Shown piece by piece: positions 78 to 28,675 of a DNA stretch of 28,675 nt. Positions within the stretch are counted from its first letter, which is position 1, and every line of letters starts with the position of its first letter. The position numbers and the translations under genes are program-made. The notes under the pieces were generated by a model. That model searched no databases. It was not told where the DNA came from and saw only the letters and a program-made list of their open reading frames with translations. This DNA comes from a virus, in the IMG/VR virus record IMGVR_UViG_3300042470_000519, positions 1 through 28,675 of that record. One strand, 5' to 3'.

Positions 78-553
78 TAGACAGAGGCTCACGCGCCCGG
101 GGGTCGCGCCCGCTGGTCCGCGTGCCACCCGCCCCACCCACCCCCGCCGGATGCCTCATCCGCGCCAGATCCGCCTGCATCAAGCACTTAGGCGTGCCAT
201 GTGACGGAAACGTGCCAATTCCTCTGGAATTGACCGTGGAATCTGTTGTGGTCTGTCGGGGTTTGCCGGGCTGAGGGTATGCCCAAAGGGCATATTTCTA
301 TGCGTCTCGTGCATAACGTCGTGACCGAGACCCTCCCGATCCCTTTGGGATCAACCACTTGCCGTTGACGCCTCTCACCCCTTTGGGGTGTCTTTCCCCC
401 TCTTTGGCATCCCCTTCCATCCCTCCCTATCGCGCTATGTGATGGGTCGAAGACCCCGGAGAGGCTGGGATCAGGGGTTTTTCCGGCCCAGCCCTTCCCT
501 TCGCGCCCTGGCGTCACGACTCCCTGTGACTTCGTCACAGACCACAAGGCAAC

Positions 554-583
554 TTGACAATGTGACAAGCCAGCCGGTACAGT
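554..583 (+). promoter_or_regulatory. Candidate sigma70 promoter for the left operon
   Basis: A perfect -35 box TTGACA (554-559) is followed after 18 bases by TACAGT (578-583), a good -10 box. Transcription would start near 590, giving a leader of about 400 bases before the ATPase gene, with several hairpins in it. This is the best promoter match I saw in the first kilobase. Confidence 0.5.
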
Positions 584-994
584 TCGTCCTGTCGATTCGG
601 CGGCAACGTCGAACAACCCGGCAAGTAGGTGCTACAGCACCTAGTGACCCGATAGGCGACGCTCCCCGTCAGAGGGGGCTCAGCAGAGGCACTAGGTGAC
701 GCACTGAACCATACGGTTCGGCCTCAACGGCGGCAGTAGCGTCGGACTCCAGAGGGGCTCTTAGCCCTGACGGGAAGGTCAACGGAACGTAGTTCCGGGT
801 GCCGAGAGGGGAGGGGTCCCCGGGGTAACGAACCCGGCGACAACGTCCTCCACGGTGTCTTCGACACCACACACCTGGGTTTCCAGACACAGACCATCTT
901 CGATGGGACGGCACCGCTTCGTCGCTGCCTTTCGTCGTTGGTGGTCTGTACCGGGCAACTCCCGATTCCCCTAGCGCAACACGAAGGAGCACCA

Positions 995-2119
995 ATGCGC
1001 GATTCCCTGCTCGCCTTGCCGAAGGCACACATCCTGGACCTCATCAAGCACGTCAACGGTGGAACCGTTGGCTTCGACCACGAGAGGGTCAAGAAGTCCG
1101 AATGCGTCGACCGTCTGCTCTCCTTCGGAGAGTCTACGGTTCAGGCTGCGATGGCTGACCTGCCGGCTCCCGCCATCCCTGCCACTACTCCGGCACCGGC
1201 TCAACCTTCGGTTGACCAGACCCAGATTGCCGCACAGATCGGCGCTCTGTTTGCCTCCCTTGCCGGCTCTGCCGTCAATGAGGACAAGGTGCGCAGCATC
1301 GTCCAGGCCGAGGTTACCTCGGCTCTGGAGCGGTCCCCGGTGGTTCGCATCGAGGTCGTCCGTCCCGATGGGACGGTGATCGTCCCCGAGGGCCACGTTC
1401 GCCCCGAGTTCAAGGACATCGTCCTTGACGCCACCTGTGGCCTGAACATCCTGCTGGTCGGTCCGGCTGGGTCTGGTAAGACCCACCTCGCCCACCAAGT
1501 GGCTGAGGCACTCGGCCGAGGCTTTGCCTCGGTGTCCTGCACTGCTGGCATGTCCGAGTCGGTTCTGTCCGGCTGGCTGTTGCCAGTCGACGGTGGTGCC
1601 TTCGACTACGTCGAATCCGACTTCGTTCGTCTCTACGAGAACGGTGGCGTGTTCCTCTTCGACGAAGTCGACGCTGCCGATCCGAACACCCTGCTGTTCA
1701 TCAATCAGGCACTGGCGAACGGGTCGTTCTTCCTCCCTCAGAGGAAGGGTCGGACCCTGGTCAAGCGCCACGCAGACTTCGTCTGCATCGCTGCTGCCAA
1801 CACCTTCGGCAACGGTGCCAACGGCACCTACGCTGGCCGTGAGCGGCTCGACGAAGCGTTTCTGGATCGGTTCCGGGCCGGTCGCCACTTCGTGGACTAC
1901 GACACCACGTTTGAGCGGGTCGCCGTCGCCCCGGAGTTGCTGGCCTGGGGCTGGGCGGTGCGGAAGCGCATCACCGAGCTGCGTATGCAGCGGGTCATGT
2001 CGACCCGGTTCCTGCTGGACGCAACGAAGTTGCTCAAGGCCGGTGCCACCTTCGACCGAGTGAAGAACAAGTTCTTCCTCGACTGGAAGTCGGAGGATCG
2101 CCAGAAGGTTGACGTCTGA
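995..2119 (+). CDS. MoxR/CobS-like AAA+ ATPase
   Basis: A 374-residue AAA+ protein. The ATG at 995 follows the ribosome site GAAGGAG; the upstream TTG in the same frame has none. The N-terminal 120 residues are a variable region rich in Ala and Pro. Walker A is GPAGSGKT at residues 156-163 and Walker B is FLFDEVDAAD with D223 and E224. A sensor-like Asn lies in AAANTFG and an arginine-finger candidate in ERLDEAFLDRF. This pattern fits the CobS/MoxR branch, whose members remodel or insert metal into partner proteins and usually work with a VWA-domain partner. The next gene looks like that partner. Phages often carry such pairs; their substrate is unknown. Confidence 0.88.
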   Translation: MRDSLLALPKAHILDLIKHVNGGTVGFDHERVKKSECVDRLLSFGESTVQAAMADLPAPAIPATTPAPAQPSVDQTQIAAQIGALFASLAGSAVNEDKVRSIVQAEVTSALERSPVVRIEVVRPDGTVIVPEGHVRPEFKDIVLDATCGLNILLVGPAGSGKTHLAHQVAEALGRGFASVSCTAGMSESVLSGWLLPVDGGAFDYVESDFVRLYENGGVFLFDEVDAADPNTLLFINQALANGSFFLPQRKGRTLVKRHADFVCIAAANTFGNGANGTYAGRERLDEAFLDRFRAGRHFVDYDTTFERVAVAPELLAWGWAVRKRITELRMQRVMSTRFLLDATKLLKAGATFDRVKNKFFLDWKSEDRQKVDV

Positions 2120-2126
2120 CGCCGAA

Positions 2127-2190
2127 ACCCCCTTCGGGGGGTCTGCGGTTCGCTACCGCACTGATGAGGCTTTGCCGGCTCGCTGCCGGC
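2127..2190 (+). repeat. Three tandem hairpins between ATPase and partner gene
   Basis: Hairpin 1 (2127-2142) has a 6-pair stem closed by a TTCG tetraloop. Hairpin 2 (2144-2160) and hairpin 3 (2174-2190) have 6-pair stems and the same loop, TCGCT. The GAAGGAG ribosome site of the next gene follows directly. There is no T tract. Likely roles are RNA processing or stability, or control of translation. Confidence 0.75.
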
Positions 2191-2205
2191 TCCGAAGGAG
2201 CAACG

Positions 2206-3084
2206 ATGCTGCACGTTACGAAGGATCGTCTGACGACGATCATGTGGGACTCTGTCATGGAGCCCGCCGATGTTGCCAAGGCAACAGACTGGAAGCAAAC
2301 CAGAAACCGAGACCAAGCCAGGGTATACACCACCACTGGTGGTCACTCCGGTGGCGGTGACTCTTGGTTCGGCGCTCCCACCTTCGGTGAGTTGCAAAGC
2401 CGGCTCAGCAAGGGCTGGCCCGAAGGCTCCCAGCGTCTGCTGGAGATCGCCACTCGCGATATCAACCCGCAGTCGATCCGGCGTCGCCGGGAGCGTGCTG
2501 ACCAGGGCGCGGAACTCGACATTCACGCTGTCTACCGTGGCGATCTGTCCAGGGCCTGGACCAGGACCCGCCGCCGGTCCGGCTCTGGTGTCCGGTCTGT
2601 GTCCATCGTCATCGACCTGGGCGCATCCTGCGGGGTCGATGCCTCGCGGTTGTTCTGGCGCGGTGCCTCGGCCTTGAAACTCGCATCGGCTCTCATCGAG
2701 TCCGGCTACTCCGTAGCCATCTACGGTGCGGCCAGCGCGAAGCGGGCCGACGATTGCGACACGGTGGACACGGTGCAGATGGTGTCCATCAAGGATGAGG
2801 ATCAGCCCCTCGACCTCGACAGACTCGCCGCCCTGACGGCGATGCCCGGATTCTTCCGGACCAGTCTGTTCGCCGGGATCATCAAGGCTTGCGACCTGCG
2901 TGGCAAGGGCTACGAATACGGTCTCGGCAAGCCCGCCCCCGATCTGATCGTCAAGGCTGTGGCCGCTATGCCGATCCCGCAGAACGCCTTCATCCAGAAG
3001 CCCGTGCTCGACCAGAAGTCGGCAGAGGAATGGATCGACGAGGTGCTCAACTCCCTCGAACAGACCGAGTCTGTTCCGGCCTGA
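2206..3084 (+). CDS. VWA-like partner of the AAA+ ATPase (CobT-like role)
   Basis: A 292-residue protein whose ATG at 2206 follows CGAAGGAGCAACG. Residues about 42-60 carry a Gly-rich stretch, TGGHSGGGDSWFGAPTF. Residues from about 134 have the look of a von Willebrand A fold: a hydrophobic strand ending IVIDLGASCG, a helix with KLASALIESGY, then the strand SVAIYGA. The classical MIDAS motif DxSxS is not intact (DLGAS), so metal binding may be altered. Position directly behind a MoxR/CobS-like ATPase supports a two-gene chaperone-like module. I recall related phage proteins grouped as DUF7192, but I am not certain of the family number. Confidence 0.6.
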   Translation: MLHVTKDRLTTIMWDSVMEPADVAKATDWKQTRNRDQARVYTTTGGHSGGGDSWFGAPTFGELQSRLSKGWPEGSQRLLEIATRDINPQSIRRRRERADQGAELDIHAVYRGDLSRAWTRTRRRSGSGVRSVSIVIDLGASCGVDASRLFWRGASALKLASALIESGYSVAIYGAASAKRADDCDTVDTVQMVSIKDEDQPLDLDRLAALTAMPGFFRTSLFAGIIKACDLRGKGYEYGLGKPAPDLIVKAVAAMPIPQNAFIQKPVLDQKSAEEWIDEVLNSLEQTESVPA

Positions 3085-3154
3085 CGTCAGCGGTGCAGGG
3101 CACTACGGTGCCCTGACCAGTGCCGTCTGCACTCTGCGCCAGTCAGTCACTGGC
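3058..3154 (+). repeat. Spacer cassette B: inverted motif pair plus three hairpins
   Basis: At the end of the VWA-like gene, 3058-3076 is a perfect inverted repeat, GAACAGAC-CGA-GTCTGTTC, made of two opposed copies of the dispersed word. After the stop come a hairpin at 3096-3115 (8-pair stem, loop TACG), one at 3119-3133 (AGTGC/GCACT) and one at 3138-3154 (GCCAGT/ACTGGC). The string GGCCTGACGTCAGC at the stop codon recurs in cassette C, and with one change in cassette D. Confidence 0.75.
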
Positions 3155-3183
3155 ACCCCATGCAAACACGAAGGAGCCCGATC

Positions 3184-3573
3184 ATGGGATTGGATATGTA
3201 CGCATTCACTGTTCCCGCTGAACTCGTCGGAGATCGGCAAACAGACATCGGCGATCTGTTTCGCGAGGAAAGCGAAACGCCAGAGAGGTTCGCTTACTGG
3301 CGCAAGTTCAACAACCTGCACGGTTGGATGGAGCGCCTGTACCGCAAGAAGGCGGGCCAGGGCGAGTTCAACTGCGACACCGTCCGGCTCATGCCGGAGG
3401 ACCTCGACCAGTTGCTGGCCGACGCGGAAACGCTGGAGCCCACGGCTGGGTTCTTCTTCGGGTCCCAGGACCCGATGAGCGAGGGGGATGTGGCCGCAGT
3501 CAAGGACTTCGTCGCCAAGGCGAAGGCCCACATTGCCGAAGGCAAAGCGGTCTTCTACGACAGTTGGTGGTGA
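3184..3573 (+). CDS. Phage protein of the MGLDMY family
   Basis: A 129-residue protein starting at ATG 3184, 8 bases after GAAGGAG. It opens with MGLDMYAF and contains YWRKFNNLHGWMERLY at about residues 38-53. This pair of motifs marks a small family common in tailed phages and bacteria, often labelled phosphoglycerate kinase in databases without support. The protein is acidic and has no membrane segment. It sits between two hairpin cassettes and so is probably expressed as its own unit. Biochemical role unknown. Confidence 0.7.
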   Translation: MGLDMYAFTVPAELVGDRQTDIGDLFREESETPERFAYWRKFNNLHGWMERLYRKKAGQGEFNCDTVRLMPEDLDQLLADAETLEPTAGFFFGSQDPMSEGDVAAVKDFVAKAKAHIAEGKAVFYDSWW

Positions 3574-3576
3574 CCT

Positions 3577-3638
3577 GTCTGTTGGCCTGACGTCAGCCGG
3601 TTGCCCCCTATGGGGGGCTTCCGAGTGCCGTTTGCACT
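3577..3638 (+). repeat. Spacer cassette C: motif, TGACGTCA, two hairpins
   Basis: Starts just after the stop of the MGLDMY gene with GTCTGTTGGCCTGACGTCAG, then a hairpin GCCCCC-TATG-GGGGGC (3603-3618) and a second one AGTGC-CGTTT-GCACT (3624-3638). The ribosome site CGAAGGAGCACAC follows. Cassette D at 3975-4036 has the same order and much of the same sequence. Confidence 0.8.
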
Positions 3639-3655
3639 GCATCGAAGGAGCACAC

Positions 3656-3988
3656 ATGAAAACCAGAGAACTGACCGGCATAGCCCTTGATTGGGCAGTT
3701 GCAAGCGCCGAGGGCGCGGACTGGTGGGCTGCTGAAGAACCACGCGATGGGCTGTTCGTGGATTACGAGCGCACACAACGCTACAGCCCATCAACCGACT
3801 GGTCTCAAGGCGGGCCGATCATTAATCGCCACATCTTCCGACTGGAAGATGACCCAGAGCATGGGTGGCTCGCTGAGGCTGGCACCTGCCAAGAGCGCGG
3901 AGAAACTGCCCTCATCGCAGCGATGCGCTGCTACGTTGCCAGCAAGCTGGGCGCTGAGGTCGAAGTACCCGCCGATCTGTTGGCCTGA
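3656..3988 (+). CDS. NinX-like protein (DUF2591)
   Basis: A 110-residue protein from ATG 3656, with GAAGGAG upstream. It begins MKTRELTGIALDWAVA and has YSPSTDWSQGGPIINR at about residues 43-58, both hallmarks of the DUF2591/NinX family seen in lambdoid and other temperate phages. The function of that family is not known. The last codons (Asp-Leu-Leu-Ala-stop) are written by the dispersed word ATCTGTTG, which is also the left end of spacer cassette D. Confidence 0.8.
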   Translation: MKTRELTGIALDWAVASAEGADWWAAEEPRDGLFVDYERTQRYSPSTDWSQGGPIINRHIFRLEDDPEHGWLAEAGTCQERGETALIAAMRCYVASKLGAEVEVPADLLA

Positions 3989-4036
3989 CCTCAGCCGCTG
4001 CCCCTCTGCGGAGGGGATGCGGGTGCAGTCTGCACC
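3975..4036 (+). repeat. Spacer cassette D: motif, TGACCTCA, two hairpins
   Basis: ATCTGTTGGCCTGACCTCAG overlaps the end of the NinX-like gene. A hairpin CCCCTC-TGCG-GAGGGG (4001-4016) and a second one GGTGCA-GTC-TGCACC (4022-4036) follow, then CGAAGGAGCAACAG and the ATG of the next gene. The final word CAACAGAT (4044-4051) overlaps that start codon. Confidence 0.8.
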
Positions 4037-4049
4037 GAAGGAGCAACAG

Positions 4050-4247
4050 ATGGAGTTCATCGAGAACGACTTCCCGAACCTCGCGGATGAAATCCGCAGA
4101 CTCAACGAGCACTTCGCATGGGATGGAGTGATCGACGCGCTGGAATACATCAAGCGCAACCTGCGAGAGTCCTACAGCGGCACCGCTGTAGAACGTGAGT
4201 TCAACAGATTCGTCGCCGCCGTGCGGCAGATGCTGGAGGCGAAATGA
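4050..4247 (+). CDS. Small hypothetical phage protein
   Basis: 65 residues, starting at ATG 4050 after CGAAGGAGCAAC. The protein is charged and predicted helical (for example NLADEIRRLNEHF), with no membrane segment or known motif. It opens the long run of overlapping small genes: its stop overlaps the next ATG as ATGA. I do not recognise it. Confidence 0.7.
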   Translation: MEFIENDFPNLADEIRRLNEHFAWDGVIDALEYIKRNLRESYSGTAVEREFNRFVAAVRQMLEAK

Positions 4248-4564
4248 AAACGATCAAGGGCACGATGTCCTGCATCGAGCGCCACTACCTTGTAGTGGAG
4301 GTCCCCGATGATGCGGACGAAGACGAGTGCATGGGGGCGTTGTGCAGGGAGTTCGAGGCGAACTCATGTCGCAAGCCAGACGACTACGAAACAGAACTGA
4401 CGCTGGACGATGAGCCAGCCCCAGACACTGGTGTCAACAGCGATCTGTTGGCTCTGGCTCAGCAGTATGCCAACGATATGTTTCACCCGCCGAGCGAGGA
4501 CAGCCGCAAGCGCCGGCTGGAGTGGATCGTTGGCGTCATCAACAAAGCGGAGGGGCGAGCATGA
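4244..4564 (+). CDS. Hypothetical phage protein
   Basis: 106 residues, acidic, with an Asp/Glu-rich middle (DDADEDE) and the core CIERHYLVVEVPDDAD. The end of the gene encodes VINKAEGRA, a version of the tail AAIAKAEG found at the ends of several other genes here; the same bases supply the ribosome site (GGAGGGG) of the following gene. It overlaps both neighbours by 4 bases. Function unknown. Confidence 0.7.
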   Translation: MKTIKGTMSCIERHYLVVEVPDDADEDECMGALCREFEANSCRKPDDYETELTLDDEPAPDTGVNSDLLALAQQYANDMFHPPSEDSRKRRLEWIVGVINKAEGRA

Positions 4565-6318: not shown

Positions 6319-6346
6319 GGGCCGCTGAGTGCGGCCCTTTTCTTTT
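6319..6346 (+). terminator. Rho-independent terminator
   Basis: A perfect 7-pair stem GGGCCGC/GCGGCCC with loop TGAGT is followed by TTTTCTTTT. It lies between the DUF3846-like gene and the next gene, and would end most transcription from the left operon. The downstream genes then need read-through or a promoter of their own. Confidence 0.9.
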
Positions 6347-14390: not shown

Positions 14391-14773
14391 ACCCAGGTTC
14401 TCGGGTCGTAGACGGGTCTTTTTGTGCGCGGGTCGAAGCCGTGAGGCACCCTTGTGTATGGGTCGATGTCCCAGTTCATCTTGTCGTTGAGGCTCGACAC
14501 GACATCTTTGAGAAGATGGTCACTGCCCCGTAGGGTAGCTACAAGATGCTCGCTCATCAGGTATTGGTACTCGCGGGTGCCGCCCTTGTATTGGCGGCGC
14601 AGAAGTACTTCCATTTCACCTTCGCGAAGACCTCTTCGCTTCTGCTCGCGAAGGCGCTCGACTTCAGCGTGAAGCCGCCGAAGCTCATCGGCTGCGGGCG
14701 TGAACAGATGGTCTGGGTCGTGCAACTCATCCAGCGCGTCGGCCAGTTCAAGTGCATTGCGTTGTGCTGTCAT
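14387..14773 (-). CDS. Hypothetical phage protein with N-terminal coiled coil
   Basis: 128 residues from ATG 14773, overlapping the helicase stop as ATGA, with AAGGAG upstream. The first half is helical (DELRRLHAEVERLREQKRR, with heptad spacing), as in many small phage proteins. The second half is polar, with NDKMNWDIDPYTRVP and repeated DPRT. It may be a helicase accessory protein because of its position, but this is only inference. Confidence 0.65.
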   Translation of the reverse strand: MTAQRNALELADALDELHDPDHLFTPAADELRRLHAEVERLREQKRRGLREGEMEVLLRRQYKGGTREYQYLMSEHLVATLRGSDHLLKDVVSSLNDKMNWDIDPYTRVPHGFDPRTKRPVYDPRTWV

Positions 14774-15723
14774 GCTGACTCCTTTACCCACAGCCGAGGG
14801 CGGGCGTTACTCGACTCGTGGAATTGCAAACTGTTCTCGTCAAACCACAGAGGGATCGCGCCCTCCCATGAGCCGTGCCTCTGCTTGTCCACGAACAGGA
14901 AGAAGTCGGGCTTCTCGTCACCGTCCTCGGGCTTCTTCGGCGTCTTGAACACGGTCACGAAGTTGTCGGTCTGGTCCACGATGGCGCCGGTCCCCTTGGC
15001 GTCCTGCTTACCCGGGCGGCTGCGCTCATCCTCGCGCTTGCGTGAGTGATGGACGAGGTGGATGTGGATGTTCAGATCCTTGGCTGCGGTACACAGGCGG
15101 GCGATGAACTTCTTCTGGCCGTTGTAGTCGTCCTCGTCAGCGACCACCTTCATCAGGCTATCGATCACGAAGTGCGTGACCCCGAGTTGTTCGGCGCAGT
15201 AGTAGATGACCCCGAGCACACGCTCCGGTGAGGTCTCTCCCTGCTGGTCGTACAACCAGAGCTTGTCCACCAGGCTGTCCAGGAACAGATCGATGTACTT
15301 GGTCGTCGGGCGGATGGTTGCGATGGCCTGGGACGCAAGGCGGCGCAGCGTCTTCTTCGGCTTCATCTCGAAGCTGGCAACGCACACCTTCTCGCCCTGG
15401 TCCATGAGCGCCAGCGCACAGTAGCCGGTGACCATCGACTTCATGTGGCCGTTGAAGCCGGCCCAGATCGTGACCTCGCCCCGGCGCAGGCGGAACTTCT
15501 CCTCGGTGCGGGGCCACGGCAGGGCGCTCCCCTCCATGTCCGCGTCACCGTGGAACTCATTGTGCAAGTCCTCGCGGAAATCGGTCGGACCCTTGATGAG
15601 CCCCAGGTCTTCCTCGCGGGCCTGCATGTAGCCCTCGAAGTCGACAGACTGTTCCTTGACCCGCGACTTCCTGAACTCGTCCAGGCTGAGCGCGGTCTTC
15701 TCGATGCTGCTAAGTGTTCCCAT
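14770..15723 (-). CDS. DnaB-like replicative helicase (RecA fold)
   Basis: 317 residues. The Walker A motif is GFNGHMKS at residues 89-96, of the GxxGxxKS form. SFEMKPKKTLRRLASQ matches the DnaB motif after strand 2, Walker B is THFVIDSLMK (D188), and HLVHHSRK carries the sensor histidines. The long N-terminal domain of DnaB is missing, as is usual for phage helicases of the RepA/DnaB C-terminal type. It unwinds DNA in front of the phage fork. It overlaps the primase fragment gene by 14 bases, a typical phage pair. Confidence 0.85.
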   Translation of the reverse strand: MGTLSSIEKTALSLDEFRKSRVKEQSVDFEGYMQAREEDLGLIKGPTDFREDLHNEFHGDADMEGSALPWPRTEEKFRLRRGEVTIWAGFNGHMKSMVTGYCALALMDQGEKVCVASFEMKPKKTLRRLASQAIATIRPTTKYIDLFLDSLVDKLWLYDQQGETSPERVLGVIYYCAEQLGVTHFVIDSLMKVVADEDDYNGQKKFIARLCTAAKDLNIHIHLVHHSRKREDERSRPGKQDAKGTGAIVDQTDNFVTVFKTPKKPEDGDEKPDFFLFVDKQRHGSWEGAIPLWFDENSLQFHESSNARPRLWVKESA

Positions 15724-16144
15724 TCGATGCTCCCATTGCTGCGTCGATGCGCTGCCAAGCGGACTCCAGCCGCTGCATGTCGGACTCTGACAACTTGCGC
15801 CCCCTGGACAGATCGCGGGCGGCGATCATGACCACTGTTGCCTCGAAGGCAATTACCCGAAGCAGGTCGCTGGCGTAGAACTTGACCCGCTCCGGCCCGC
15901 GCTTCTGCGTGTAGTCGTCGCGCTGCCGCTCCGGGAACAGGTCCGTCATGTCCATGCCGATTGCGTCGAGCACGGACTGCACACTGCACCCGCCGAAGCA
16001 GTGCAGCAGGATGCGACCGTCGTCGGTCTCACGCACCGCCAGGGACGGCGAACGGTCGTCGTGCGCTGGGCAGCAGGCGGTGTAGGAACCGTGCCGGCCC
16101 TTGACCTTGGAGAGTCGCGAGAGGATAGCGTCTATGCGGCTCAT
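15710..16144 (-). CDS. CHC2 zinc-finger primase-like protein
   Basis: 144 residues. ACCPAHDDRSPSLAVRE followed by LLHCFGGCSVQSVL gives the CHC2 zinc site (C24 or C25, H28, C49, C53) found at the N terminus of DnaG-type primases and phage primase-helicases. The TOPRIM catalytic domain is not present here or in the neighbours, so the protein by itself is probably a template-recognition subunit. It may work with the helicase and host primase. Confidence 0.85.
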   Translation of the reverse strand: MSRIDAILSRLSKVKGRHGSYTACCPAHDDRSPSLAVRETDDGRILLHCFGGCSVQSVLDAIGMDMTDLFPERQRDDYTQKRGPERVKFYASDLLRVIAFEATVVMIAARDLSRGRKLSESDMQRLESAWQRIDAAMGASNGNT

Positions 16145-16812
16145 GCCCAGGGCTCCTTCCCGACCTCGGACCAGAACCCATCACCCTGTGCGGACTGGTC
16201 CTCCCAGCGGCGCTGGTTGATGTAGGTCGACGCCATCGGGACGTACTGACCACCGTCCTTCAGCCAGTCTCGGGTCTGTGCCTTTGCCGTGACGGCAGCG
16301 ATGATCTTGGCGCGGAGCTCCTCGTCCGGCGCCAGCTTGAGCCAGGACGCAATGGCTGTGGACTTGGCATCCTTCTTCGGATAGACCGACCAGAACTCAG
16401 CGAACCCGAACTCCCCCTCGGGGGGTTGGGGGGGGTTCTTGGTTCTTGGTTTCTGGTTCTTGGTTGGCAATGGGGAGTCAGTAGGGGGGCTATCCCCTCC
16501 CTTTGCCCACCGCTTTGCCGCCCCCATTGCCCCCCCTTTGCGCATGGCACGGAAGCGGTCGATCTCGGCATCGCACCGGTCGTTCGTGTAGCCGGCATCG
16601 GTGAGGTCGAAGAACTCAGACAGCACGGCCTGCACTTCGGTGACGTAGTCACGCATGCAGATCAGTCTGGCGCAGGCGGCAGGGTCTGCCGGCAGAGGTC
16701 CCTCCTGCGTGTAGTAGGCGTCGAGCAGACGCCTGTACGCAAGGTCCTCGTAGAGGCTCAGGTGGCGTGTCTTCGCGAGGTAGTCGCGAAGGTAGAAAGG
16801 GTAGTAGTACAT
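16141..16812 (-). CDS. DUF1376 replication-initiation-like protein
   Basis: 223 residues, first gene of the leftward operon, with the ribosome site GAAGGAG. The N-terminal domain (YPFYLRDYLAKTRHLSLYED, LAYRRLLDAYY) is DUF1376, common in prophage replication genes such as ydaU. A low-complexity Pro/Lys linker (16400-16510) leads to a C-terminal domain with FAEFWSVYPKKDAKSTAIA, typical of phage O-like initiators. It probably binds the origin and recruits the helicase encoded downstream. Confidence 0.85.
   Translation of the reverse strand: MYYYPFYLRDYLAKTRHLSLYEDLAYRRLLDAYYTQEGPLPADPAACARLICMRDYVTEVQAVLSEFFDLTDAGYTNDRCDAEIDRFRAMRKGGAMGAAKRWAKGGDSPPTDSPLPTKNQKPRTKNPPQPPEGEFGFAEFWSVYPKKDAKSTAIASWLKLAPDEELRAKIIAAVTAKAQTRDWLKDGGQYVPMASTYINQRRWEDQSAQGDGFWSEVGKEPWA
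16420..16479. repeat. G-runs and TTCTTGGT repeats in linker of DUF1376 gene
   Basis: On the + strand there are six G (16420-16425), TT, then eight G (16428-16435), followed by three or four near-copies of GGTTCTTGGT. On the coding strand this writes the linker PTKNQKPRTKNPPQPP. The eight-base run is a likely slippage site, and the G-runs could form a quadruplex. Confidence 0.75.
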
Positions 16813-22753: not shown

Positions 22754-25700
22754 TCACTGGGCCTCGCGCTTCATCCGGACCCGCTCGACCTCGATCTCCT
22801 TGGTGAGGCTGTTGCGCTCTCGGTAGAGCTCGTCGATCTCCTTGCGCTTCTCGGCGCCCGACATCTCCGTGTCGCGCTCGATTGCCTTGATCTGGTTGTT
22901 GATGTCGGTGAGTTGCTTCTTGATGCTGTCGTAGGTAGGTTTGAGCTCCAACAGAGCCTCGTTCTTCTCGGACAGCCGCTCGGCCTTGGCCTCGTTGCCC
23001 TGGTTCTGGGCGTTGTTGAGGTCGGCAGCAGCGCGAGCCGCCTTCTCGGCCGTCTTGTAGAACTCGGTGACGTACCTGGACTGGTTGGCCGGGAGGTCGC
23101 GGACGTAGTTGCCGATGAAGAACATGTCCTCCTTGCGAAGGTCCGGGATTGCGCCCTCGCGGGCTGCGGCCATCGCGTAGTACGAGCTCTGCTGGATAAC
23201 GGTGCCGACCCAACCCAGGTACGCCCGCATCATGTAGTCGTACTGGATTGGCGACAGCTTCATCTTCTCGGAGTCGACGCCGGTCACAGCACCGATGCCA
23301 TCGGCGACCATGCTGTTGAGTCTGTTGGCGACGATCCCTGCGCCCGAGGTGCGCGGGTTGATGCGCTCGTCGGCCGACATGTTCTTCATCGCCTCGGTCT
23401 CAATTGGCCTGTCGGACAGACCATCCTTGTTGCGGGCCACGTCGTACAGCGGACGCAGCACCTGCGGAATCGGGTTGATCGCAAAGGTGTCGGCAAGCAA
23501 GGACATCATCCGTTGGCCGAAGACCTTGCCCTCCACGTCCTTGTCCACCATCTGTTCTAGGACGCGCTCGGCAATGGTGGAGATGGCGCCCATCTCGAAC
23601 GGCTTGGGGATGCGGAAGGCGGTGTCCGTGCCGGGGATCTTGAACCAAAAGAACATGTCCCGGTCCCAGTCCTCGCGCTCCTTGAAGTCTTCGTCGTCTT
23701 TGTACGCAAGGTACAGGGCGAGGCCAGCCATCGTCACCGCAGCGGTGGTGACGCCGAACTTCATCGCCTTCTTGCGCTCGCTCTCGCTGGCCGTGCCACG
23801 GATCGCCTTTACCGCTGGGCTGATGCCGTCGCGGCCGATCTTGTAGAGGCCCTGGAGGCGGGCGTTGAAGTACGGGAGGATCTGGTTCAGGTAGCGCACT
23901 GCGCCCCACGCACCCTGGGACGAGAAGTCCTGGATGTCGCGGGCGGCGTAGGCGGCCTCCAGGTGCGAGGCTCCCTTCTCGCGCATCTGTCGGTACAGGG
24001 CCGCACGGTTGGCGTTCTCGGCTGCGTCGCTGATGTTGTCGTAGGCGTCCCACAGACGGCGGACCAGGGCCTTCGCCTTCTCCGGGGTGTTGATGATGGT
24101 CTCGGCGTCGACGCCCTTGGAGATCAGCCGCTTCACCGCAGCGGAGCGGTCGCCGTCGAAGGCGTTGCCCATCGTGAACACGCCGCCGCCGGCCAGCACC
24201 TCGCCTCGGTTCTTCTGGAACTCGCGCACACCCTGCAACACGTTGGCGGCCGGGTTGTAGGACAAATCCGTCAAGCCAACAGACTGCACCGAGTCGCGGA
24301 TCAGGTTGTTGGTCTTGAAGGTCGGGTTCAGTGCGACGAAGCGGGTCAGCGTCGTCTTAAACGGGCGGGCGACGCGGAGGAAGAAGTCGTTGTGATCCAG
24401 CCCGGTGACGGCGGTCAGCGACTGCAACAGGAACGGGTCCTCGATGTCGTAGTGGACTGGCTTGCCGCCCTCCATGACCTTGATCGTGCCCTTCAGCGGG
24501 ACGACCTTGCCGTCCTTGTCCTTGCCCATAACCTCGCTGATCTTCTCCAGGCGTTTGACCATCCCACCCATCTCCTGAGCCGCCTTCAGCGCCTCGCTGG
24601 AGCCGGCGTTCTTCATCGAGGCCGAGAGGATGTGCGACCAGTTCATCAGCGTGTTCTGCATCAGGTCGTTGAGCGGACGCTCGCTGCCCTTCAGCATTTT
24701 CGAGAAATACTGGTTGACGTTGCCGGATGACTGGGCCGCTGCGGACAGACTGCCGTCCTCTTCCATGTACCGATAGAACGGGACGTACCAGACGTCAGAG
24801 GCGAACTTCTTGTAGGCCGCTTCGTCGATCAGCCCGGACTGGCGTGCCACATCGAGCACAGATCTGTTGAGTTCGTTCATGCCGCGCAGCGCCTCGGCGT
24901 ACACGGCCACCCGCTGCTTGCCGTCCGGCATCTTGCCGAGGTTCAGCTTCTTCAGCTTGGCGACCTCGTCGTCGGTGAAGAACAGTTCGCGGTCCTGCTT
25001 CTTGAGCTCGCCGGCACGGTTGGCCGCAATCCACATGAAGAACCGCTCGGTCTCGTTGCCCAGCGGCTCCAGCGTCTCGATCAGGCCCTTGGTGTTCTTC
25101 TTCAGGTTCAGGGCGCCGTCGTCGTTGAACACCTGTCCGTAGTGCAGCAGCGCCTCGACAGCGCCGTCCACCGAGGCCGACATGCGCAGTTGCATGTACG
25201 CCTTCTCGGAGATGTCCTTGACCGAGCGCACCTTGTCGAAGACGCCCTGGGTCAAGCGCAGGGCGAGCTTGGGCTTGAGGGCCTCCAGGCGCTGGCGGAT
25301 GTTCGGAGGGGTGGGCGCACCCTTCGCCAGGGCGATCTTCTTCGTGTCCTCGGGTACGTCGTTGTACTGGGACTCGTAGTCGTCGCGGCGGAACAAGGGC
25401 AGGCCGTCTTCTTCCACGACCTTCTGGAGCTTTTCCGGGATGACAAAGCCGACGTGCTGGCCCGTATCCTTGATGTCCATGATCTCTGTCTTGCCGCCGA
25501 AGCTCTTGAGGACCTCCTTGTTTGCGACAGACGCAATCGTCTGGTCGTAGTAGGAGCGCAGGCCATCACCACCAATGTCCATGTCCAAGCCGGAGATGAC
25601 GCCGGAGGTCTCGTTGTCGTTGTCGAGTTCGAGGCCCTTGTTCTCCTCGATCTGCTGGGCAAGATCCTTGCCGACAACAGACGCGACCTTGTCCTGTGGG

Positions 25701-28675
25701 ACCTGCTTGTCAACGAGCGTCCTACCACCTTTCAAGGCGGACAAGGTGATGTTGCCGGTCTTCTTGTCCTTGACGTAGGCGACCTGATCGATCTGCTTTG
25801 ACAGCTTGTACCTGTCGACTTGCTGCTCGCCGCGAGTCCAGGCAATGCGGTCAATACCGTTCTGTTGGGCGTAGGCAATCGCCCTCTTCAGCAGCAGCGC
25901 GGTCCACGCCCTGGTGTCCTTGACGAATGGCGCGTCCGGCACCTTGGTGTTGACGTCGTCAAACAGCTTGTTCTGCTCCTCACCAACTGCGCCCATCTCG
26001 TCGTAGAGCTTTTGGCGCTGATCGGCGAGCTTGTTGAACTCATCGAGTTGAGCGTCAGTCAACTCCGCCATCTCAGAGTTGATGGCCTTAATCTTTTCGC
26101 CAATGCTCTCGTAGCGGCTTTCGAGCTCGACAAGACGCTTGTCTCCACCGTCCTTTGGCGCAAAGCCAGTCTCGCGACCTTCTTGTCCGCGCTGGCTCTG
26201 GACCTCCTCAAGGAACAGAACAGAGTTTCCGGACCTGTCTTTGCGCACGTTCATGCGCAGCCAGCCAATGGCCTTGCCCTCGGTGACGGTGCCGTAGTGG
26301 ATCTTGTCTGTCGGCTTGTAGGGCTTCACGGACGGATCGGTCAGTACGATCTCTGTGTAATCCTCTCCACCGGGCTCAGTCCACTTCTTGTTGATGGCCT
26401 CGCCCATCGCCTTGCGGGACCAGCCAAAGTTGTCGCCAACAATGGACAGCATTTCGTCCCGAGACATGAACGTCGCGTCTTCGCCCGTGGTGGACTCAAC
26501 AAGCTCGCGCAACGTGTCCTCATCCAGACCGGACTTCCCGTCTTCGAGAACCACCTCGTTTAGGTGAAGCCCGCTTTCGGCAACAAAGCCCATGACCTGT
26601 TGCTTTGTCAGCTTGGTGTCGCGGTTGAGTTGGAGCCAGTCCTCAACACCGGTCCACTCCATCTCTGCCGAAACGCCGGCTACCTTCATGCCCTTAATCG
26701 TCCCCAGCCACTGCTGACCCGTCATGCGCTCCTGCTTGACGCTGTTCACAGTTCGAGCCAGAGCAGAGTAGAAGGTCTTCTTCTTCTCGCGCAGGGTGGT
26801 GCCGAGCGCGGCCTCACCCGACTCGGCCTGCACGTCAGCGTCCACGACGTAGCGGCGGGCGTTGCCGACCAGGGCGCGGACGTCACTGTCGGAGACGTAG
26901 TTCACGCCGACAGACCGCAGCCACTTGCGCAGAGCAGAAAAGATGCGTTGCAGCGCGTTCTGCGTGTCCTTCGGGACCGGCTTGCCCTCAAGGGCGAGGC
27001 GCGTGTTCTCCTGCGCCATGTCGGCCAGGACTTCCTCGACCGCCGTCTCAAGAGACAGCTTCTCGTCGGCAATCATCTTGTCCGCCTTCTCGCGGACAGA
27101 TCTGTTGCCACGGTAGATGTCGTTCATCACCTTGGTGTACGAGTCGCCCAGCACTTGACGCAGACCGAAGTGGCCGGTCGCCTCGTGCGCGGCAGTCAAG
27201 ATGACGTCAGAGATTCCGCTGGCATGGTTCGCCAGGATGTAGACCTTGCCGTTCCAGTAGATGCCCTTGGCGTTGGTGATCTTCTTGTCTTCGAGGTACT
27301 TGGACAACTGCTCAGGCAGAGCGAGCTCGTTCTGCACCACGATGATCGATGGGGCGTTCTTCCAGCCGGCGCGCAGCGCGTCAACCACCTTGCGCACGGC
27401 GGTGACCGTCATGCCGCGAGCGCGACCGTCGTCCTGCCGCAGCACCACCCCATCGTCCTTCTTGCGGTTCTCTTCAGCCTTGGCGTTGGCGCGTTCGGCC
27501 CGCTCGTTCTTGCGGACGCGGCTGACGATTTCGTCGTGGAGCTCGATGGTGTTGTAGCCCTCCTCTACAGCGGTCTGCCAAGACTCCTTACTGCCAGACG
27601 GGAGGTCGTTCCACGCGATGTGCGCAGCCTTGCCGTCGTCGTTGTCCTCCCACAGATCGATGACCTCTTGGCTGGCGACCTTGCGGACCTCCGGCTCCTT
27701 CTGCTTGGTCTCGGCCTTCTTCGCCTTCTGCTTGGCCTTGACCTTCTGTTCGACGGTCTGTTTGGGCTCGGCAGGCGTAGGCGCAGGCGCCTCCGCAGCG
27801 GGGGCGGGCGCTGGTGCTGGCGGCTTGGTAGCAGGAGCGGGCGGCGCAGGAGTGGGAGCAGGCGGCGCGGGAGGAGTGGCGGGCTCAACAGGCTTGTCGG
27901 GCGTGGCCGGTGCCTCCGCTTGAGGCGCGGGCTTCTTGGCCGTCATCGCAGCCCACTCGGCCTTGAGGTCCGCCTCCTGTTGAACCAGGGCGTCGTACTC
28001 GGCCCGCTTCTTGGAGCCAGACACGGGCACTCGACCGGCCTTGCTCAACATGGCGCGAGCCTTGTCGCCGGCAGCCTTGGCCTCCTCGAAGACTTGGTCG
28101 GCGGTGCGAGCGGCGGGCGGCGCGGGTGGCGTTGCGGGCTCGACAGGCGCGGTCGGCGTGACGGGTGCGGGGGCGGGCGCAGGAGTCTCGGCAGATGGCG
28201 CCGGAGCAGGCGACGGCTGGGCACTCCCAACCCCTGGGGACGGTGCAGCACCGCCCTGAGCCTTTTCCGACTGAGCGGACAGATTGCGATACAGGTTCGC
28301 CAGGACGTCAGGCTTGTAGCCCTCGCCGATGGCCTCGGTCCACTCGGCTTGCACCTCCGGCTTCAGGCTCGCGAACTTGGGGCCACCAAAGGCGTCCCAC
28401 GCGACCGCTGCAAGATTGGGCGGCGTAGCCGGGGCAGTGGCGGGGGCAGTAGCCGGGGCAGCGGCGGGGGCAGTAGCCCCGGGCCTGGGGTCCGTGAAGA
28501 TGTTCCTACCGGTCTTGGCGGGCTTCAGTGCATCGGCGGCGGCTTGGCCGGCGGGCTGCGGCGCGGGGGACGGCTGGGCGGGGGCGGCGGGGGCCGGCGC
28601 TGGGGCGGCTGCTGCTGGGGTTGCGGGTACATCAGCCTGGGGCCGCGACTCGACGAAGAAGAACGTGCTTCCACC
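22754..28675 (-). CDS. Giant polyvalent phage protein (partial)
   Basis: At least 1,973 codons and open to the window edge, so the N terminus is missing; the GTG at 28354 is not a real start. From N to C terminus: Pro/Ala-rich linkers (28675-27780); a Lys-rich helix (about 27760-27700); a zincin motif AAHEATGHFG (27170-27190); a domain ending in VLFLEEVQSQRG and IDRIAWTRGEQQ (about 26200-25830), known in polyvalent phage proteins; an LPD38-type region with NPTFKTNNLIRDSVQ (about 24330-24270) and ILPYFNARLQGLYKIGRDG (about 23870); one membrane-like span; and a charged C-terminal coiled coil. Such proteins are carried in virions of some podoviruses and injected to protect or prepare the DNA. 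Confidence 0.85.
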   Translation of the reverse strand, partial: GGSTFFFVESRPQADVPATPAAAAPAPAPAAPAQPSPAPQPAGQAAADALKPAKTGRNIFTDPRPGATAPAAAPATAPATAPATPPNLAAVAWDAFGGPKFASLKPEVQAEWTEAIGEGYKPDVLANLYRNLSAQSEKAQGGAAPSPGVGSAQPSPAPAPSAETPAPAPAPVTPTAPVEPATPPAPPAARTADQVFEEAKAAGDKARAMLSKAGRVPVSGSKKRAEYDALVQQEADLKAEWAAMTAKKPAPQAEAPATPDKPVEPATPPAPPAPTPAPPAPATKPPAPAPAPAAEAPAPTPAEPKQTVEQKVKAKQKAKKAETKQKEPEVRKVASQEVIDLWEDNDDGKAAHIAWNDLPSGSKESWQTAVEEGYNTIELHDEIVSRVRKNERAERANAKAEENRKKDDGVVLRQDDGRARGMTVTAVRKVVDALRAGWKNAPSIIVVQNELALPEQLSKYLEDKKITNAKGIYWNGKVYILANHASGISDVILTAAHEATGHFGLRQVLGDSYTKVMNDIYRGNRSVREKADKMIADEKLSLETAVEEVLADMAQENTRLALEGKPVPKDTQNALQRIFSALRKWLRSVGVNYVSDSDVRALVGNARRYVVDADVQAESGEAALGTTLREKKKTFYSALARTVNSVKQERMTGQQWLGTIKGMKVAGVSAEMEWTGVEDWLQLNRDTKLTKQQVMGFVAESGLHLNEVVLEDGKSGLDEDTLRELVESTTGEDATFMSRDEMLSIVGDNFGWSRKAMGEAINKKWTEPGGEDYTEIVLTDPSVKPYKPTDKIHYGTVTEGKAIGWLRMNVRKDRSGNSVLFLEEVQSQRGQEGRETGFAPKDGGDKRLVELESRYESIGEKIKAINSEMAELTDAQLDEFNKLADQRQKLYDEMGAVGEEQNKLFDDVNTKVPDAPFVKDTRAWTALLLKRAIAYAQQNGIDRIAWTRGEQQVDRYKLSKQIDQVAYVKDKKTGNITLSALKGGRTLVDKQVPQDKVASVVGKDLAQQIEENKGLELDNDNETSGVISGLDMDIGGDGLRSYYDQTIASVANKEVLKSFGGKTEIMDIKDTGQHVGFVIPEKLQKVVEEDGLPLFRRDDYESQYNDVPEDTKKIALAKGAPTPPNIRQRLEALKPKLALRLTQGVFDKVRSVKDISEKAYMQLRMSASVDGAVEALLHYGQVFNDDGALNLKKNTKGLIETLEPLGNETERFFMWIAANRAGELKKQDRELFFTDDEVAKLKKLNLGKMPDGKQRVAVYAEALRGMNELNRSVLDVARQSGLIDEAAYKKFASDVWYVPFYRYMEEDGSLSAAAQSSGNVNQYFSKMLKGSERPLNDLMQNTLMNWSHILSASMKNAGSSEALKAAQEMGGMVKRLEKISEVMGKDKDGKVVPLKGTIKVMEGGKPVHYDIEDPFLLQSLTAVTGLDHNDFFLRVARPFKTTLTRFVALNPTFKTNNLIRDSVQSVGLTDLSYNPAANVLQGVREFQKNRGEVLAGGGVFTMGNAFDGDRSAAVKRLISKGVDAETIINTPEKAKALVRRLWDAYDNISDAAENANRAALYRQMREKGASHLEAAYAARDIQDFSSQGAWGAVRYLNQILPYFNARLQGLYKIGRDGISPAVKAIRGTASESERKKAMKFGVTTAAVTMAGLALYLAYKDDEDFKEREDWDRDMFFWFKIPGTDTAFRIPKPFEMGAISTIAERVLEQMVDKDVEGKVFGQRMMSLLADTFAINPIPQVLRPLYDVARNKDGLSDRPIETEAMKNMSADERINPRTSGAGIVANRLNSMVADGIGAVTGVDSEKMKLSPIQYDYMMRAYLGWVGTVIQQSSYYAMAAAREGAIPDLRKEDMFFIGNYVRDLPANQSRYVTEFYKTAEKAARAAADLNNAQNQGNEAKAERLSEKNEALLELKPTYDSIKKQLTDINNQIKAIERDTEMSGAEKRKEIDELYRERNSLTKEIEVERVRMKREAQ
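28429..28488. repeat. Tandem Ala/Pro codon repeats
   Basis: Copies of GGGGCAGTGGCGG and GGGGCAGTAGCCG alternate over about 55 bases, writing runs of PATAPA in the giant protein. This kind of repeat easily changes length by slippage. Confidence 0.75.

Follow-up and report, generated by a model that had tools for sequence, protein, structure and literature searches.

Structured RNAs that act in cis at the head of an early phage operon are known from HK022, in which the putL and putR RNAs lie just past an early phage promoter and suppress pausing and termination without a phage protein. These put RNAs are about 70 nt long and comprise two stem-loops (PMC9378689). Large structured non-coding RNAs classed as ornate, such as GOLLD, ROOL and OLE, are known as well, and some of them occur in phages. 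At the level of DNA, short hairpins with 3-nt loops near the start of the early genes serve as promoters for the virion RNA polymerase of phage N4, with three such promoters that carry conserved bases. Template switching can build and maintain perfect hairpins, or quasipalindromes, that are short and double-compensated and require no G-U intermediate; they have been described as scattered events (PMC8794818). Perfect inverted repeats of up to 284 bp have also been reported within the protein-coding genes of Nematomorpha mitochondria (PMC6649704).

The viral locus described here resembles each of these systems in part. Like put, it appears to have a cis-acting structured RNA past an early promoter, with a predicted promoter at 554-583, a leader from about 590 and an operon from 995 that is probably expressed early; unlike put, the leader is approximately 370 nt long and has at least six helices, including a long-range one; put-like activity is proposed by analogy, and membership in the put family is not claimed. 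It likewise differs from GOLLD, ROOL, OLE and HEARO, in that no Rfam 15 family matched the window at gathering score, and matches up to E = 10 were noise, the best sub-threshold one being a microRNA family with E = 0.039. The hairpins that surround and overlap the leader are, in contrast to those of N4, numerous, free of sequence conservation (stems differ throughout and many triloops occur) and located also within genes. They share with template-switch hairpins the compensated two-arm changes, the strand symmetry and the lack of a G-U excess, but form a dense field that fades from one locus; their arms, unlike those of the Nematomorpha palindromes, stop at 8 bp, with loops of 2-4 nt.

The window, i.e., the whole stretch of DNA analysed, is a 28,675-bp viral contig from IMG/VR, to which all coordinates refer unless another genome is named, and it contains an integrase gene. 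The operon is headed by a gene for an AAA_5 (MoxR-like) ATPase (995-2119, plus strand), followed by a DUF7192 gene (2164-3084, plus strand), the product of which we call VWA-like on account of its MoxR partner. The replication genes sit at 14770-16812, away from the leader. A polyvalent protein of 1866 aa with an LPD38 domain, probably an injected protein, is encoded at 22754-28354 on the minus strand, and its counterpart in the relative G002 has 2514 aa. Relatives were gathered with the ATPase as query, which gave four close ones, with an ATPase alignment, which gave many more, and with the core motif GTCGGACTCCAGAGG of the leader, which added others. The sole match to the core motif in a scan of a genome collection (L040) was rejected as a chance match, and the virus matches L016, L017, L019, L022, L024, L026, L027, L029, L030, L034-L039, L120, L134, L144, L147 and L148 were likewise judged to be chance. 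Known phages and plasmids, searched by DNA similarity, yielded nothing akin to the leader; for the AAA protein, distant relatives exist.

In relatives with longer contigs, the non-coding stretch sits between divergent terminase genes and the AAA operon. The box AGAGGCTCACGCGCCC (83-98, plus strand) is common to the same inter-operon region of relatives and marks the left border of the hairpin field, and BLAST matched positions 75-154 to L002, L003 and L005. Several other repeats were observed in this region. A 21-nt tandem duplication (GGGGAGACATGCGCTTGCGTA / GGGGAGACTCGCGCTTGCGTA) occupies 29-70, close to the left contig end, and a motif resembling ATCAANNACTT is repeated upstream of the promoter at 178-192 and 348-360, as well as in L003 and L004. 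In L014 (3520-3870), L032 (3890-4200) and L005 (1780-1950), the interval from the terminase genes to the hairpin field contains repeats of the CCCCCCTATAG/CCCCCCTAATG type, possibly a packaging or regulatory site, which are accompanied in L014 and L032 by short tandem repeats (GGTTCTT, CTAGTT).

An earlier note on this DNA had drawn attention to many short perfect stems in 216-868 and regarded their density as beyond chance. Both points were borne out by counting non-overlapping hairpins with stems of at least 5 bp and loops of 3-5 nt: 12 were found, at 216-232, 278-294, 338-352, 376-390, 444-456 and 524-540 upstream of the promoter and at 626-643, 706-719, 755-767, 783-797, 808-821 and 854-868 downstream of it, versus 2.21 ± 1.40 expected from 1000 dinucleotide shuffles, none of which exceeded 8. 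With stems of at least 6 bp, 8 hairpins were observed versus 0.55 in dinucleotide shuffles, and the folding energy of the region has a z score of -3.5. The note was also right that T tracts are lacking: no terminator-like site (GC-rich hairpin plus T tract) was found in 1-1100, and we rejected an array of intrinsic terminators. The hairpins split evenly around the promoter, with six in 216-550 and six in 585-868. Those at 216-540 (6 observed vs 0.96 expected) lie outside the leader transcript. The one at 524-540 adjoins the -35 box on its upstream side and recurs in several relatives in the same form with other arm sequences. An imperfect inverted repeat at 458-498 surrounds the motif GGGATCAGGGGTTTTTCCGG, which occurs once or twice at the same place in relatives. 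The proposal that the region is a structured RNA was supported for about 590-960, with its conserved promoter, its relatives and its covarying helices P4 and P7, and was not supported for a single RNA spanning 216-868, because 216-550 is upstream of the promoter. A packaging or replication role, which the note also raised, is at most hinted at by the neighboring terminase genes in relatives. The hairpins belong to two overlapping things, a leader RNA and a wider hairpin field.

Transcription of the leader would start from a predicted sigma-70-type promoter, TTGACA-18-TACAGT (554-583, plus strand), and in most relatives where the distance was measured, the TTGAC element precedes the core motif by a near-constant 177-189 nt. 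More than 20 viral contigs have the leader region together with the TTGAC box ahead of their AAA gene. From the promoter at its 5' end and from conservation at its 3' limit, the leader would extend over about 590-960 on the plus strand (approximately 370 nt), ahead of the AAA-ATPase/VWA operon. Its predicted helices begin with a 5' hairpin of variable sequence (593-611, CGATTCGGCGGCAACGTCG) and the P3 hairpin GGTGC/GCACC (628-641), followed by the long-range helix P4, in which 640-646 pairs with 690-696 across more than 40 nt. P4 spans the P5 hairpin (662-678), which has the conserved flank GATAGGCG at 651-658. Further downstream are the P6 hairpin GAACC/GGTTC (706-719), the P7 stem CGGCG/CGTCG (728-744), the most conserved motif, or core, GTCGGACTCCAGAGG (741-755), and a 3' hairpin ahead of the ribosome-binding site of the first gene (890-948), equivalents of which exist in relatives including L046 and L051.

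Comparison with related phages for compensatory changes had been named beforehand as a check, their lack in the stems counting against a structured RNA, and such changes are present in both P4 and P7. In 16 sequences, 6.69 of 9 P4 pairs form when each strand is matched with its own partner, versus 5.03 ± 0.27 with partners exchanged among the sequences; a single pair is represented by as many as three Watson-Crick types. In relatives, P7 reads CACTC/AAGTG and CTGCG/CGTAG. For each helix, none of 5000 shuffles reached the observed pairing, a count that is not a strict probability since the sequences are akin. A covariance model built from the leader alignment recovered the window, G002, G004, L015, L020 and L023 at E < 1e-18 and gave weak matches in L025/L028 and L033, where related core motifs lie ahead of other genes; only L023, L020, L025/L028 and L033 are neither in the training set nor identical to a member of it. 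Conservation and covariation together show that, at the level of sequence comparison, the leader is a conserved multi-helix structured RNA.

The leader looks modular, because in L013 (4900-5050) and L023 (4215-4350) helices P3-P6 are lost with the promoter and the 3' half retained, and because in L046 and L051 (each 2300-3000) a different structured-looking RNA takes its place before the same 3' hairpin. The AAA genes of L046 and L051 are moderately rich in hairpins. In L140 (3430-3760), the P4 sequence of one group is combined with the P7 sequence of another, which suggests recombination within the leader. A conserved leader peptide in the 3' hairpin was sought by eye, and the reading frames there are not conserved. 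In L042, an intrinsic terminator lies 51 nt before the AAA start codon, and the operon transcript would have to pass it; neither the window nor any other relative scanned showed a terminator in this interval. The position between an early-type promoter and the operon, together with the terminator of L042, suggests that the leader acts on transcription in cis, and by analogy with HK022 put RNA its target would most likely be RNA polymerase or the early transcript.

An intrinsic terminator is predicted at 6319-6346 (plus strand), either within the early operon or at its end. Terminators of this kind, GGGCCGC..GCGGCCC followed by a T tract, occur at 6319 in the window, 5432 and 6919 in L005, 5326 in L031, 6904 in L044 and 6993 in L043, and lie 2.4-5.3 kb past the AAA start codon.

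The earlier note had placed the hairpins in DNA without genes, and this part was mistaken: they continue at about 16 per kb through coding DNA to an abrupt end near 4450, so that the field covers 216-4450 with a perfect short hairpin about every 55-70 bp, and a sliding count located the highest density of the window not in 216-868 but within the AAA and DUF7192 genes. Both genes are traversed by perfect Watson-Crick hairpins with arms of 6-8 bp and loops of 2-4 nt; the AAA gene has 19 perfect hairpins versus 5.9 ± 2.1 in synonymous-codon shuffles, and the DUF7192 gene has 12 versus 3.5 ± 1.7. Most other genes tested are at the synonymous-shuffle expectation, with the exception of the DUF1376 gene (16141-16812, minus strand), the first of the leftward replication genes, which has 7 hairpins versus 1.7 expected; the density in its G002 and G004 homologues is 8-9 per kb.

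Relatives that bear the leader have their hairpin peak at the same place, i.e., in the leader and the AAA and DUF7192 genes, and in the window and its close relatives dense hairpins also occur upstream of the promoter. The field is absent from AAA orthologues without the leader (L004 and phage AM24), as well as from that of L045, whose contig lacks the upstream region. Eleven units were pooled by distance (arms of at least 6 bp, loops of 3-4 nt), with the limitation that these counts come from related, not independent, genomes. The density is 0.9-1.4 hairpins per kb at more than 0.7 kb to the upstream side, rises to 6.9 directly ahead of the start site and peaks at 12.3 in the leader; successive downstream intervals have 11.2, 9.6, 8.5, 6.7 and 5.5, falling to 0.7 at 7-8 kb. 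The downstream decay is log-linear, with a half-distance of about 1.6 kb (r2 0.98). Spacing is more even than random placement would give (CV 0.38-0.65 vs 0.70-0.76), and the positions of hairpins turn over among relatives while the density is kept. No field of such strength was seen in the controls (isolated phages with related terminases, N4, lambda and AM24), the first 5 kb of N4 being mildly elevated. A literature search found no description of such a field, which is weak evidence, as most subscription literature lay outside that search.

In the AAA genes of 11 relatives, perfect 6-pair hairpins occur at 11.9 times and 7-pair hairpins at 27.9 times the synonymous-shuffle expectation. By the same measure, 6-pair arms with one G.T are at 0.61 times and those with one A.C at 1.10 times expectation, and 7-pair arms at 1.8 and 2.6 times, respectively. 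Enrichment is found for arms of 6-8 bp and for 5-pair perfect stems, with arms of 9 bp or more nearly absent, and for loops of 2-4 nt, mainly 3, with none for loops of 6 nt or more. On the sense and antisense strands alike, the folding excess amounts to about -4 kcal/mol per 90 nt. A property of DNA is thus the best reading of the pattern, since G.T is not favored over A.C, as would be expected under selection on a sense-strand RNA, and since both strands fold equally; that only Watson-Crick pairs are involved, that gene borders are ignored and that density fades smoothly with distance also lead us to deduce a probable DNA-level origin. Compensated changes in the arms were found in 45 distinct orthologous hairpin pairs between relatives. 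Because amino acids encoded by the arms agree less with the family consensus (0.668 vs 0.751, a difference that lower column conservation explains in part), the hairpins appear to cost protein sequence, overriding protein preference. The codon phase of loops equaled that of synonymous shuffles and was uninformative, the trend of arm GC with arm length was the same in the background, and GC skew gave no signal, with neither a switch nor a sign of an origin at the leader.

The reading that we prefer, tentatively and at somewhat less than an even chance, is that the head of an early operon, with a host-type promoter and a cis-acting leader, is overlaid by a leader-centered hairpin field that arises at the DNA level. 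Transcription from the promoter at 554-583 would yield an RNA of which the first 370 nt or so fold into the leader before the AAA-ATPase/VWA operon, and the field, centered on the leader, extends some 0.7 kb to its upstream side and, across genes, several kb downstream. We hypothesize that the duplex becomes open at the leader and past it in the downstream direction, through early transcription, an R-loop or DNA synthesis begun there, and that short fold-backs in the exposed strand are kept perfect as a polymerase copies one arm onto the other; alternatively, perfect DNA hairpins may be useful there and hence be selected. The field may accordingly stem from repair in exposed single strands with hairpins as templates, or else from selection that favors DNA hairpins. 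Its gradual fading, regardless of gene borders, fits a process launched from a single site. The even spacing points towards selection rather than mutation; taken with the finding that none of the 65 orthologous hairpin pairs whose loops differ shows an inverted loop (many inversions would be lost to coding constraint), it speaks for selection or for neither side. A more specific version, possible but rather doubtful, is that the leader itself opens the DNA and gives rise to local synthesis or a long R-loop, whereupon the exposed strand is time and again self-templated into perfect hairpins of 6-8 bp that leave in the protein-coding genes an imprint fading over several kb, or else that the hairpins are a selected single-strand DNA code of the leading region.

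Several of these observations can be arranged differently. If the leader primed an R-loop origin of the ColE1 RNA II or T4 type, the field would be the imprint left through mutation by the polymerase that starts there, as template switching at hairpins wanes with maturation of the fork. A structured transcript at the center, an exponential downstream decay and the known capacity of template switching to create perfect hairpins fit this scheme, and T4 uses R-loop-primed origins (PMC3016281); we nevertheless think it improbable, as there is no skew switch at the leader, the replication genes are elsewhere, the hairpins are evenly spaced and loop inversions are missing. Slightly better placed, though still decidedly unlikely, is selection of the hairpins in the early mRNA, of which the leader would merely be the most structured part, for example, against long unstructured stretches exposed to Rho or RNases or for a phage RNA-binding protein. 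The field largely tracks the operon downstream of the promoter, its spacing is more even than random and double-compensated pairs occur in coding sequence, all as such selection would have it; hairpins with one G.T, however, show no enrichment in coding DNA, in contrast to 5-pair perfect stems, the antisense strand shows an equal folding excess, and dense hairpins precede the promoter in the window and close relatives. A cause at the RNA level, if pairing were unusually strict, keeps some probability because the field roughly follows the early transcription unit.

The own promoter and conserved architecture of the leader, the terminator between leader and AAA gene in L042, and the related core motifs ahead of other genes in L033 and L025/L028 would also be expected of an independent, trans-acting non-coding RNA that is processed off the operon mRNA. 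This explanation seems unlikely to us, given that nearly all relatives have the leader ahead of the AAA/VWA operon in the same orientation and that the terminator is confined to L042 among the window and relatives scanned. Very improbable, finally, is that the hairpins are DNA promoters or binding sites of an injected phage protein. In N4, the promoter hairpins are short and a sheared G:A pair holds their 3-nt loop (PMC4496689), and among 163 distinct 3-nt loops of the field, 71 are GNA triloops (on either strand) and 115 have a C-G closing pair; the window moreover encodes the large polyvalent LPD38 protein. Against this stand the dozens of hairpins with unrelated stem sequences, the host-type promoter of the early operon and the lack of an RNA-polymerase domain in the largest proteins scanned, the window being a fragment.

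The leader represents a new phage RNA family, supported by covariation, at a decisive juncture of infection. As for the hairpin field, it is a measurable and conserved DNA-level pattern that seems to override protein-coding preference and fades from one locus. If its origin is mutational, the field would document naturally at which sites, and in what manner, a polymerase acts on phage DNA, and would allow a test of the claim that RNA hairpins are built by template switching; if it is functional, it would represent an undescribed use of DNA secondary structure in genes.
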